In this document: in pieces, positions 19,919 through 22,059 of the stretch
Numbering within the stretch: the stretch's first letter is position 1
Layout of the letters: every line of letters begins with the position of its first letter
From: a virus
Virus record (IMG/VR): IMGVR_UViG_3300045286_000009
Location: 1-22,059 of that record
DNA: 22,059 nt
Direction: 5' to 3' (one strand)
Notes under the pieces: model-generated
Databases searched by the model: none
The model's input: the letters and a program-made list of their open reading frames with translations, nothing else
Told to the model about the DNA's origin: nothing
Translations under genes and position numbers: made by a program

Positions 19919-20262
19919 GCCTTCACCTCCAGCCGGGCCGCGTAGAACTTCGGTGCGCCACGCTCCTGCGCGTACTCCCACTTCACGCGCGAATCCCTGT
20001 CGTCGACCTTCAGCCAGTCCGCGACCCCGTCACGCATGGCCTTGAACGCCGAACGCAGGTTGTCGTCGTCGAGTTCCCTCGGCGCGATGCGGGTCAACTT
20101 CACAACCACCGGGCCGAGTCCTGGCCCATCTGGCGCAGCATGCTTCAACTCAGCCCAGGCCAGCAAACGCTGCCGCTTCGTCTGGGTGGCCTTCGCTGCC
20201 CAGTGCAGCCGCTGGTTGGCCACGCTGACCACCTTGACGGGGATGGTGACGGCCAGGTGCAT
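19915..20262 (-). CDS. rusA: RusA-family Holliday junction resolvase (115 aa)
   Basis: The start MHLAVTIPVKVVSVANQRLHW and the motif ELDDDNLRSAFKAMRDG (Asp65, Asp66, Asp67, Asn68, Lys74) followed by ADWLKVDDRDS (Asp87, Asp88) are the RusA family signature; the Asp residues bind Mg2+ in the dimeric active site. It cuts four-way junctions and branched DNA made during phage replication and recombination, which helps prepare DNA for packaging. The ATG at 20262 shares a base with the upstream TGA and has GGAGG about 8 bases before it; a GTG at 20277 is disfavoured because that ribosome binding site would fall inside the coding region. Length is normal. Confidence 0.88.
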   Translation of the reverse strand: MHLAVTIPVKVVSVANQRLHWAAKATQTKRQRLLAWAELKHAAPDGPGLGPVVVKLTRIAPRELDDDNLRSAFKAMRDGVADWLKVDDRDSRVKWEYAQERGAPKFYAARLEVKA

Positions 20263-20774
20263 CACACCGGCCTCCACTCAAACACGCTAGCCGCCGGCAT
20301 CTGCTGCTTCCAGCTGCGCCCGATCCTGGCCTTGCGGATGGCGTTCGGGCTGCAGCCGAATTCGATGCCCAGCTCCGTGTTCGTCACGCTGGCCGGCCGC
20401 GACCTGATGTCCGCCGCCTTCTCGAAGTCCAGCACCGTGCGCCCCATGCGCTCGAAGTGCCGCACCCGTGCCATGTACTCGCCGGCCTGCATGCGCCGGC
20501 CGCGGTTGTAGGTCCGCTTCTGCACCGACCCGTACCGCGCAACGATCAGGTGCTCCGGGTTCAGGCACAGCCGGTTGACGCACCGGGTCGTGACCACGTG
20601 CTTGGCCGGGATCTCGCGCCCCTGCAGCACCTGGACGATGTACCGGGCCGTCAACCACTGCTTGCCGCCGATGTTGGCCTGCGGGTATCCGCCGCCGTTC
20701 AGCCCAAGCTTCCAGTGCCAGCAATCGCCGCACTCCTCGACGTACATCGGCAACGACTCCAGGGACAGTTTCAA
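20262..20774 (-). CDS. HNH-endonuclease-like protein with C-terminal helix-turn-helix (170 aa)
   Basis: The N-terminal part has Cys pairs and an aromatic core (VEECGDCWHWKLG), a GGGYPQANIGGKQW strand pair and REIPAKHVVTTRC then RLCLNPEHLI, the scaffold of HNH_3-type nucleases. Where the family usually has V-x-H-x-C, this protein reads VVTTRC, so the first catalytic His appears to be Thr. The C-terminal 50 residues (ADIRSRPASVTNTELGIEFG, SPNAIRKARIG) resemble a helix-turn-helix. The start is a TTG at 20774 overlapping the TGA upstream, with AAGGAG about 9 bases before it; an ATG nine codons later (MYVEECG) is an alternative. HNH proteins near terminases can assist packaging (family knowledge); loss of the His would favour a DNA-binding role. 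Confidence 0.75.
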   Translation of the reverse strand: MKLSLESLPMYVEECGDCWHWKLGLNGGGYPQANIGGKQWLTARYIVQVLQGREIPAKHVVTTRCVNRLCLNPEHLIVARYGSVQKRTYNRGRRMQAGEYMARVRHFERMGRTVLDFEKAADIRSRPASVTNTELGIEFGCSPNAIRKARIGRSWKQQMPAASVFEWRPV

Positions 20775-21061
20775 GCGCTCGCTCCTTCGTTCCTCGGTTG
20801 CGGGCAGTCCTTCGACAGGTGCCCTTCCATGCCGCAGTAGCAGCAGCGCAGCACGCCATCGGACAGCGGCCCCTGCAGCGGCTTGATGTTCCTCACCACC
20901 TGGCGCGCCCATGCCAGCGCGTAGGCGTCGACAGGGCTGCCGGTGCCGGCGATGTCCACGACCCGCTGGGCGGCGATGCGGAACAGCTCGCGCCGCTCCT
21001 GCCACTGGCGCCGGACCTCGGGCGGGCATTCGTCCAGGTCGGCAACGTCGGCGGCCATCAT
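20771..21061 (-). CDS. CCHC zinc-knuckle protein (96 aa)
   Basis: The N-terminal 60 residues are helical (CPPEVRRQWQERRELFRIAAQ, VDAYALAWARQVVRNIK). At residues 73-86 the sequence CCYCGMEGHLSKDC fits the zinc-knuckle spacing C-x2-C-x4-H-x4-C (Cys73, Cys76, His81, Cys86), a single-stranded nucleic-acid binding motif known mainly from retroviral Gag and eukaryotic RNA-binding proteins. GGAG about 9 bases upstream supports the ATG at 21061, which overlaps the previous TGA; a second ATG follows immediately. Lying between the replication helicase and the nuclease genes, it may bind single-stranded phage DNA or RNA. Confidence 0.72.
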   Translation of the reverse strand: MMAADVADLDECPPEVRRQWQERRELFRIAAQRVVDIAGTGSPVDAYALAWARQVVRNIKPLQGPLSDGVLRCCYCGMEGHLSKDCPQPRNEGASA

Positions 21062-21351
21062 TTCGGCTGCTCCGGTTGGCCGGCGATCCAGGCGGCGAAG
21101 CGGGGGTCTTTCATCAACTTCGACTTCAACCCCTGGTCGCTGACCGTGATGGTGACGGTCCGTAGCTCAAGCGAAGGACTGTCACTGTCACGGTCTACCG
21201 TGACGTCACGCACGCGAGTGTCACGGCGTGACAGCGTGACATCCCCTCCGTAGGAGGGGCGCGCGCGCGCGAGAGTGTCACGCCCAGTGTTTGTCACGTT
21301 TTGCGCTTCTTCTGTCACGGTATGCTGTTTGTCTGTCACGGCACGCCTCAT
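21058..21351 (-). CDS. Small protein whose gene carries the TGTCACG repeat array (97 aa)
   Basis: The ATG at 21351 overlaps the helicase stop (ATGA). The first 70 residues are low-complexity and rich in Val-Thr, Arg-Asp and Asp (AVTDKQHTVTEEAQNVTNTG), because the DNA consists largely of CGTGACA repeats read in several codon phases. The C-terminal 23 residues (LKSKLMKDPRFAAWIAGQPE) look like an ordinary helical protein end. No strong ribosome binding site is seen, so coupling to the helicase is likely. A start further upstream at 21465 would lie inside the helicase gene. The coding sequence seems constrained by a DNA-level function, as with lambda O, whose gene contains the origin iterons (known precedent). 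Confidence 0.6.
   Translation of the reverse strand: MRRAVTDKQHTVTEEAQNVTNTGRDTLARARPSYGGDVTLSRRDTRVRDVTVDRDSDSPSLELRTVTITVSDQGLKSKLMKDPRFAAWIAGQPEQPK
21180..21340. repeat. Array of TGTCACG / CGTGACA repeats (candidate origin or operator array)
   Basis: Eight exact copies of the heptamer occur in 161 bases: plus orientation at 21186, 21219, 21276, 21292, 21313 and 21334, and inverted at 21227 and 21235. Three more differ at one base (21180, 21199 inverted, 21204). Two are head-to-head palindromes: CGTGACGTCACG at 21199-21210, and TGTCACG-g-CGTGACA at 21219-21233. The last copies on the right are spaced 16, 21 and 21 bases, near multiples of a helical turn. The copies fall in several codon phases of the gene they lie in, so the protein sequence does not explain them. 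Confidence 0.8.
21243..21271. repeat. Perfect 7-bp inverted repeat next to an alternating GC tract
   Basis: CCCCTCC-GTA-GGAGGGG (21243-21259) is a perfect hairpin-forming inverted repeat. It runs straight into GCGCGCGCGCGCG (21259-21271), 13 bases of alternating purine-pyrimidine. Both sit between the left (mostly inverted) and right (directly repeated) halves of the TGTCACG array. Such elements can extrude a cruciform or adopt Z-form under negative supercoiling; that behaviour is inferred here. Confidence 0.7.
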
Positions 21352-22059
21352 GCTTTCAGGGTGATGACGACGCCCTGGGAGACCTCGAAGAACCCTGCCT
21401 TCAGTGCCCACGCCTTGCACCGGTGGTAGGCCTGGCGCTTCGCGTCGGTGTTGTCCAGGTCGCACTGCTTGTAGAACTCGGTCCGAAGTTCCGACTCTTT
21501 CTGGCCGTTCTGCAGCAGGCTCAGCAGCAGCTGGTTCTTGCCGCCGCGGCCGGCCTTGACCTCGGCCTGCATCGCTTCGCCTACGTCTTCCGGGTCGGAC
21601 AGGTGGCGCGCGACCAGCGAGGTCACCGGGTCGCCGTCCTGGTCGACGCCGATCTCGTGCGCGGCAAGTGCGAACGTCGCGTCAGCGAACAGCTCGCCGT
21701 CCTTCATGTGCTGGCATGCCACCGTCGCCAGCATTTCCTTCTCGTCGCGAAAGCAGCCGATCAGGCATGCCGTATTGGCGCGAATGGCGCTCGAGCCTCG
21801 AGGCCTCTCGGTCTGCGAATGCCCGCTGTGGTGGATGACGATCACGCCGCAGTTCCACAGCTCGCGGAACCGGCGCGCCAACTCGGTCAGGTACGCCGCC
21901 ATCTCGTTGGCCGCGTTCTCGTCGCCGCTGTAGGTCTGGCTGAGGGTGTCGACAACCACTAGCCTAGGGATCACGCCGCGGGCCTGGGCGGTCTCTACGA
22001 CGCGCCAGGCATGCTGGGTGAGGTCTACGGCGCAGGGCACCACGAAAAAAGGCGCCTGA
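21348..22059 (-). CDS. RepA/AAA_25-type replicative helicase, cut by the right window edge
   Basis: The frame is open through the right edge; about 236 C-terminal residues are visible. They include the Walker B strand RLVVVDTLSQTYSGDEN, the sensor strand NCGVIVIHHSGHSQTE with paired His, and RPRGSSAIRANTACLIG, the order expected for RecA-fold hexameric helicases of the RepA/AAA_25 family. The Walker A loop must lie beyond the window. The C-terminal 60 residues (LLLSLLQNGQKESELRTEFY, then CKAWALKAGFFEVSQ) look like a winged helix. It would unwind DNA at the phage origin and recruit the replisome. A GTG at 22043 is internal, not the start. The stop overlaps the next ATG (ATGA). Confidence 0.84.
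   Translation of the reverse strand, partial: QAPFFVVPCAVDLTQHAWRVVETAQARGVIPRLVVVDTLSQTYSGDENAANEMAAYLTELARRFRELWNCGVIVIHHSGHSQTERPRGSSAIRANTACLIGCFRDEKEMLATVACQHMKDGELFADATFALAAHEIGVDQDGDPVTSLVARHLSDPEDVGEAMQAEVKAGRGGKNQLLLSLLQNGQKESELRTEFYKQCDLDNTDAKRQAYHRCKAWALKAGFFEVSQGVVITLKA

Follow-up and report, generated by a model that had tools for sequence, protein, structure and literature searches.

A repeat array behind a tailed-phage helicase gene: a probable replication origin read by the helicase itself

Introduction

A viral DNA fragment of 22,059 bases from IMG/VR (analysed whole, and called the window below) ends in the 3' part of a replicative helicase gene; directly behind that gene, on the minus strand, lies a small ORF crowded with copies of one heptamer. 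Two questions arise: what do the repeats do, and which protein reads them? The initial annotation saw in them the iterons of a replication origin, on the model of lambda ori inside gene O, with an operator array for a phage regulator as the main alternative.

The record imposes a limit on what can be read at the locus. Genes upstream of the helicase part lie outside it, as does the 5' part of the helicase gene itself; only the C-terminal part of the ATPase is present. The ORFs of the window include long structural-type and large-terminase-like ones, together with a small terminase match. The view developed here is that the array is very probably the iteron set of the phage's replication origin, bound by the phage's own SF4 helicase by way of a winged helix at its C-terminus.

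The repeat array

Exact TGTCACG (CGTGACA when read in the direction of the helicase gene) occurs 11 times on the two strands of the window, and 8 of these lie at 21186-21340; three further copies with one mismatch start at 21180, 21199 and 21204. The recount thus returns the eight exact and three near-exact copies in 161 bases (21180-21340) originally reported, and the whole-window expectation, computed as 4.57, agrees with the earlier figure of about five. The heptamer forms the densest 7-mer cluster per 161 bp in the window, with 8 copies, the best cluster in 60 dinucleotide-preserving shuffles ranging from 3 to 6.

The arrangement is ordered (Table 1). The first CGTGACA stands 8 bp from the helicase stop codon; four words in direct orientation come first, and beyond a (CG)6 run and a hairpin lie two inverted words and then the remaining copies. 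The direct repeats had been described as spaced at 16, 21 and 21 bases, and the starts at 21276, 21292, 21313 and 21334 agree. In the frame of the small ORF the eight exact copies fall in codon phases 0, 0, 1, 2, 0, 2, 2 and 2, that is, in all three, where the initial annotation had spoken of several.

Table 1. Features of the helicase-array locus in the window
Feature	Coordinates	Strand	Basis or remark
Replicative helicase gene, 3' part (AAA_25, RepA/DnaB-type RecA fold)	21348..22059	-	Pfam AAA_25 E=2.8e-10
C-terminal winged-helix domain	21351..21548	-	AlphaFold model, structural matches
Recognition helix TDAKRQAYHRCKAWALKA	21396..21449	-	Helix 53-70 of model m5f46e30da14a
Codon CAG, Gln209 (fragment numbering), putative specificity residue	21432..21434	-	58/58 loci agree
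Iteron 1, CGTGACA	21334..21340	-	Exact word match
Iteron 2	21313..21319	-	21 bp from iteron 1
Iteron 3	21292..21298	-	21 bp from iteron 2
Iteron 4	21276..21282	-	16 bp from iteron 3
(CG)6 alternating run, between array halves	21260..21271	.	Sequence; TCGCGCGCG in most close relatives
Perfect 7-bp hairpin CCCCTCC-GTA-GGAGGGG	21243..21259	.	Sequence, DNA fold, paired stems in relatives
Iteron 5, inverted	21235..21241	+	Exact word match
Iteron 6, inverted	21227..21233	+	Exact word match
Iteron 7	21219..21225	-	Head-to-head palindrome with iteron 6
Iteron 8	21186..21192	-	Degenerate copies 21180-21186, 21199-21205, 21204-21210
Small ORF over the array	21058..21351	-	First half array-encoded; tail LMKDPRFAAWIAG in some relatives

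The small ORF itself has no Pfam or PHROG match and no known initiator domain. The likeness to lambda ori therefore holds in part: iterons do lie inside an ORF beside a replication gene, but that ORF is not recognizable as an initiator. An origin of the lambda O type proper was rejected, as the array ORF lacks an initiator domain and the repeat word tracks the helicase instead (see below).

Small ORFs over or behind the array share a conserved DPRFAxWxAG-like tail in the window (21058-21200) and at six related loci (L275, L371, L384, L393, L295 and L400); their first halves are array-encoded and differ between loci. Further along the minus strand, at 20262-21061, a small zinc-knuckle (CCHC) protein and an HNH endonuclease are encoded between the array and a RusA-like/terminase block.

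The helicase and its winged helix

The gene in front of the array encodes an SF4 ATPase of the DnaB/RepA type that ends in a winged helix. This last domain, of about 85 residues and encoded directly beside the array, was overlooked in the initial annotation. Its AlphaFold model has pLDDT >90 over most of its length and an H-H-H-beta-beta topology, with helices at 23-30, 37-47 and 53-70 and a two-stranded wing. Structural matches are to the winged helices of ORC, Hel308, cullin, Zur and MCM; comparison with the PDB makes the fold apparent and yields no specific homologue, and Pfam has no model for the domain.

What the window lacks at the N-terminus can be seen in full-length relatives. Two of these (L260, from a Rubrivivax MAG, and L282) carry a PF00772 DnaB N domain in front of PF13481 (AAA_25); the full-length model of L282 has pLDDT 84.5, and its best Foldseek matches are DnaB. 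Two others (L299 and L475) have Prim-Pol and PriCT_2 in place of the DnaB N domain. The priming part is thus exchanged, whereas winged helix and array stay together.

A nucleotide search of phage records with the array region gave no match; tblastn of the window helicase against cultured phages gave 20 weak matches, none spanning the whole winged helix and none a close relative; among Burkholderiales genomes, close relatives were found in 1 of 399 in the order and in 2 of 401 in the family.

Arrays behind related helicases

A scan of related phages for TGTCACG clusters beside the helicase had been suggested as a check on the origin reading. An array of the same kind does usually follow the helicase, and it is the word that varies. 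The first relative, L002, has a helicase 50% identical to that of the window, the word GGGACA and the same layout. Further relatives were found by scans with helicase alignments, which gave 70 non-redundant helicases, 68 of them with a recognisable word; these words are xGTGACA and xGGGACA (CGTGACA and CGGGACA among them), CCGGACA and ACGGCAC. At least seven copies of one 7-mer occur in the 300 bp behind the helicase in 48 of the 68 loci; elsewhere in these loci, 1 of 1351 windows of that length does as well.

The grammar of the array is largely conserved: two 21-bp steps, a centre of 31-35 bp and, in many loci, an inverted pair 2-3 bp apart. The element is intact even where inserted genes separate it from the helicase, at L298, L303 and L002. 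The gene downstream of the array differs among relatives. At 29 of the 68 loci no open frame crosses the array, and in Vibrio phage 1.076.O (helicase identity 30%) most of the repeat region falls where no gene is annotated. Because the word changes between phages and the frame is so often missing, the array is to be seen as a DNA element; that it is tied to the helicase, and is not a protein repeat, is strongly supported by these sequence comparisons. DNA-level constraint, proposed from the window by itself, is borne out in this way. Relatives that kept the protein and lost the heptamers would have spoken against the proposal; the reverse was found.

At L298 and L303 a coding-like stretch (MSV..EPWPFY..) stands between the helicase stop and the undisturbed array. 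No array was seen at L420 and L422, and none accompanies the helicase of Polaromonas plasmid pPNAP03 (motif KRNAL), which was set aside. More distant relatives (L308-L334, 30-35% identity) have other words directly downstream of the helicase: CGGACAA, GTACCGA (14 copies), AGGAACA, CGTAGTA, TGAGAAA, TGAGCAA and AACCGAA. The Klebsiella pneumoniae plasmid pKp_Goe_795-4 (L477), a 17-kb circular phage-like or satellite-like element, has a related helicase and then TGCGGCA repeats around CTGTATACA.

A residue that predicts the word

If the winged helix reads the repeats, helicase and word should change together. The third helix begins with a motif (R/K)-X-A-(Y/F/W)-x-R, in which X is Gln209 of the window fragment. 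X predicts position 3 of the word in 58 of 58 loci: it is Gln in all 21 with T there (CGTGACA) and Lys or Arg in all 37 with G (CGGGACA). L004 is a locus with Lys. The column was first chosen by eye; a scan of every column over the C-terminal ~345 helicase residues, and loci found later, support the choice. X is the only perfect predictor among the columns scanned (MI 0.94, z=36); the next columns reach z=15 (the neighbour of X), 8.9 and 8.4, and these three, like X, belong to the recognition helix or immediately precede it. The pairing of Gln with A:T and of Lys or Arg with G:C is familiar chemistry.

Two further correlations were seen. The residue before X (R/K as against S/Q/A) matches G as against C at position 2 of the word in 44 of 45 loci, the exception being L419, and Val or Met at X matches the GGCAC word in 68 of 68; independent switches are too few for significance in either correlation. 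Locus L475, found after the rule was set, has the motif R-L-K-S-F and an array of ten CCGGACA, as the rule predicts (C at position 2, G at position 3). Among the later loci, plasmid p1 of Azospirillum argentinense has Lys at X and the word CGGGACA.

A tree built from the ATPase domain only shows 12 changes of the word; supported branches give ten independent pairs, and all ten are concordant with X (p=0.002). On a tree of the winged helix only, with X and its neighbours removed, five supported independent pairs are left, all concordant; that only five remain indicates that co-transfer of winged helix and array contributes to the pattern. The specificity of the column, on the other hand, points to more than simple co-transfer of adjoining DNA. 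That the helicase winged helix reads the iteron word is thus strongly supported by covariation, and the neighbouring helicase, through this domain, is the probable iteron-binding initiator.

Four loci (L419, L423, L424 and L429) have near-identical ATPase domains yet differ in winged helix and word, which points to a recent exchange of the two elements, winged helix and array.

The centre of the array

The hairpin and the (CG)6 run between the array halves also escaped the initial annotation. The single-stranded DNA fold of 21236-21282 beats all 200 shuffles on either strand (z=-3.4/-3.3). Nineteen centre hairpins, from the window and its relatives, present 13 different stems, every one perfectly paired, with loops that vary. 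A GNA triloop was tried as the defining trait of the hairpin and rejected: loops TAC, TTAC, TAAA, CAT, CTT and TCC occur while the stems stay paired. Folds of the centre in three relatives are not clearly better than shuffles overall (z -1.5 to -0.3); the structural case therefore rests on paired stems and not on energy.

An AT-rich melting region between the iteron sets is absent: the window centre consists of CCCCTCCGTAGGAGGGG and (CG)6, and the centres of close relatives are mostly GC-rich. The CG run is not universal, some relatives having a G-rich tract or other hairpins. A second type of centre reads CTCGCGCGCGC-ATAAGGGAA. All 13 viral contigs matching CTCGCGCGCGCN{0,4}TAAGGRAA carry such an array; 11 of them were already in the helicase set, and in the other two the array was seen on reading. 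Loose patterns of CG run plus hairpin gave mostly chance matches, and only those with a repeat array were kept.

Origin, or something else?

The place of the array, its helicase, the grammar of iterons and inverted words, and the precedents discussed below are the reasons for taking the site to be a replication origin. This is the best-supported reading of the array, as the initial annotation had suggested, and we infer it. If the words are read by its own tail, the helicase can probably locate its start site unaided.

A match between residue and word indicates binding, not purpose, and one might suppose that the helicase winged helix, or another phage regulator, occupies the heptamers as a transcriptional control. 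Regulators often have winged helices, and the head-to-head palindromes are operator-like. Against this, the arrays are placed 3' of the helicase gene and are hardly ever seen at other points of the loci, the gene downstream varies among relatives, and known systems with a similar layout are origins. Terminator and RNA-family scans returned nothing, and no promoter-like site was found within 20700-22059. The operator, formerly the main alternative, is accordingly disfavoured and must be called improbable.

Binding by the helicase could also serve titration or handcuffing, at a locus for copy-number control, incompatibility or partition, with replication starting elsewhere; iteron arrays can act in this way in iteron plasmids. 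The conserved spacing and strict centre (hairpin plus CG run) argue against this, as do the constant place behind a replicative helicase and the experimental function of the equivalent PICI layout, and the idea is highly improbable. A cos or pac site for the small terminase, which is encoded another 1.6-2 kb along, would suit the HNH endonuclease and terminase genes that follow in the window; yet the word tracks a helicase residue, and at an E. coli locus (L478), where the annotation has no adjoining terminase gene, the helicase is again followed by the array, which leaves packaging extremely unlikely. Selection on a VT-rich peptide, with the DNA repeats as by-product, could account for the open frame in the window and the similar tail in some relatives, but is practically dismissed by the use of all three codon phases and by the Vibrio phage, and is refuted for the family by the 29 frameless loci.

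How such an origin would work

On the origin reading, the recognition helix of the helicase would read the heptamer, with Gln209 facing T:A, the third pair of CGTGACA. Several subunits would each contribute a winged helix, bound to the phased 21-bp direct repeats on one side of the centre and to the inverted copies on the other; the helicase ring would thereby be placed over the GC centre with its (CG)n run and hairpin. The centre may open under supercoiling, by way of a cruciform or Z-DNA as candidate structures. The helicase would then load itself and recruit a primase, presumably host DnaG through the DnaB-type N domain; in some relatives the fused Prim-Pol would be the source of primase instead of host DnaG.

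Comparison with known replicators

An initiator helicase with iterons 3' of its own gene is already known. The Rep protein of SaPI elements uses a C-terminal domain to read iterons directly downstream of its gene, as related in PMC7581432 (Ubeda 2007 as cited there); in gram-negative PICIs the origin is the region 3' of rep, and the rep-ori of EcCICFT073 drives replication in E. coli (PMC6092414). The rep-ori regions of SaPIbov1, SaPI5 and EcCICFT073 resemble the window in having iterons immediately 3' of the initiator-helicase gene, in two sets around a central element. In the SaPI/PICI group the C-terminal domain of Rep sets iteron specificity, a role that here is predicted from covariation (58/58 loci, 10/10 switches). 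The differences are equally clear. PICI origins have an AT-rich centre, the window a GC hairpin and CG run; Rep of SaPI and Cch2 belong to other helicase families (PMC7581432), whereas the motor here is SF4, and those close relatives that were checked join it to a DnaB N domain; and a PICI is a satellite without the full structural gene set, whereas the window comes from a tailed phage with structural genes. A PICI-like element of E. coli has an AAA_25 helicase followed by GTGAGG repeats around TGTATACA; the AAA_25 motor thus does occur with this layout.

P4 alpha, too, is initiator and helicase at once and ends in a winged helix; its motor is of the SF3 type. P4 alpha has a Toprim primase; here the N-terminal domains are DnaB-type or Prim-Pol, the motor is SF4 and the repeats stand right behind the gene. 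The winged helix of P4 alpha binds origin repeats, according to PMC4234260. In pRN1 a stem-loop immediately downstream of the Rep gene is needed for replication (PMC4234260), and ORF904 of pRN1 and the Rep proteins of BPP-1-type phages likewise end in a winged helix; these have an SF3 helicase and one large stem-loop without iterons, and sequence-specific binding was not demonstrable (PMC4234260). The window motor is of the AAA_25 RecA type, which sets it apart from the SF3 motors of the pRN1/P4 type.

PrimQH-type primase-helicases join a primase to a RepA/DnaB-type ATPase and a C-terminal winged helix, a composition comparable to L299 and L475; origin recognition has been proposed for them, without sites or specificity (PMC5862659). 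The present family adds the sites and a residue-base rule, and in other relatives DnaB-N takes the place of the primase. In lambda, as in the window, iterons lie inside an ORF beside replicative functions, but the ORF that hosts them in lambda is the initiator, whereas here the helicase would read them. The oriV of RSF1010/IncQ offers a RepA-type SF4 helicase, iterons and single-strand hairpins; there a separate RepC reads the iterons and RepB' primes, whereas here the reader is fused to the helicase.

As judged from the open-access literature, four things are new: that tailed phages have such a system, and with a DnaB-type motor; the rule linking residue and base; the GC-rich centre; and how widely the layout is distributed. 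An earlier description is possible.

Implications

DnaB-type helicases normally require an initiator and a loader. If the origin reader is fused to it, such a helicase would amount to a minimal replicator that loads itself, and would be a simple model for ring loading. A broader proposal, to which we give about an even chance, is that there exists a class of phage replicators in which a DnaB-type helicase both reads the origin and loads itself, with no separate initiator or loader; in which a GC-rich (CG)n-hairpin centre is opened, not an AT-rich one; and in which new specificity arises by swaps of single recognition-helix residues in step with the whole iteron set.

The rule (Gln with T, Lys or Arg with G, a small or polar neighbour with C) would make origin specificity predictable from sequence and offers a practical route to locating origins in many uncultured phages. 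With this phage family, a layout regarded by those who described it as unique to PICIs is extended to tailed phages, and the GC centre runs counter to the expected AT-rich opening site.

Exchange of modules and shared centres

In E. coli, a search with L478 found RepA-type copies in 547 of 5426 genomes. The DNA that lies just upstream of the L478-type RepA helicase adjoins DUF927 or primase-family genes in other strains; with such alternatives at one junction, whole rep modules seem to be exchanged.

The same CTCGCGCGCG run and CTCC-T(A/T)C-GGAG hairpin recur inside other ORFs at L036, L094/L263, L265 and L022, with repeat words that are unrelated: GGAACTCAGG, AGTGGGA, GAATGCGC and GATGGCAA. 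The centre-bearing ORF of L094 has a weak HTH match, and those of L265 and L022 adjoin a DnaB-type helicase. One centre shared by unrelated iterons suggests a host factor that acts there, or a structural role.
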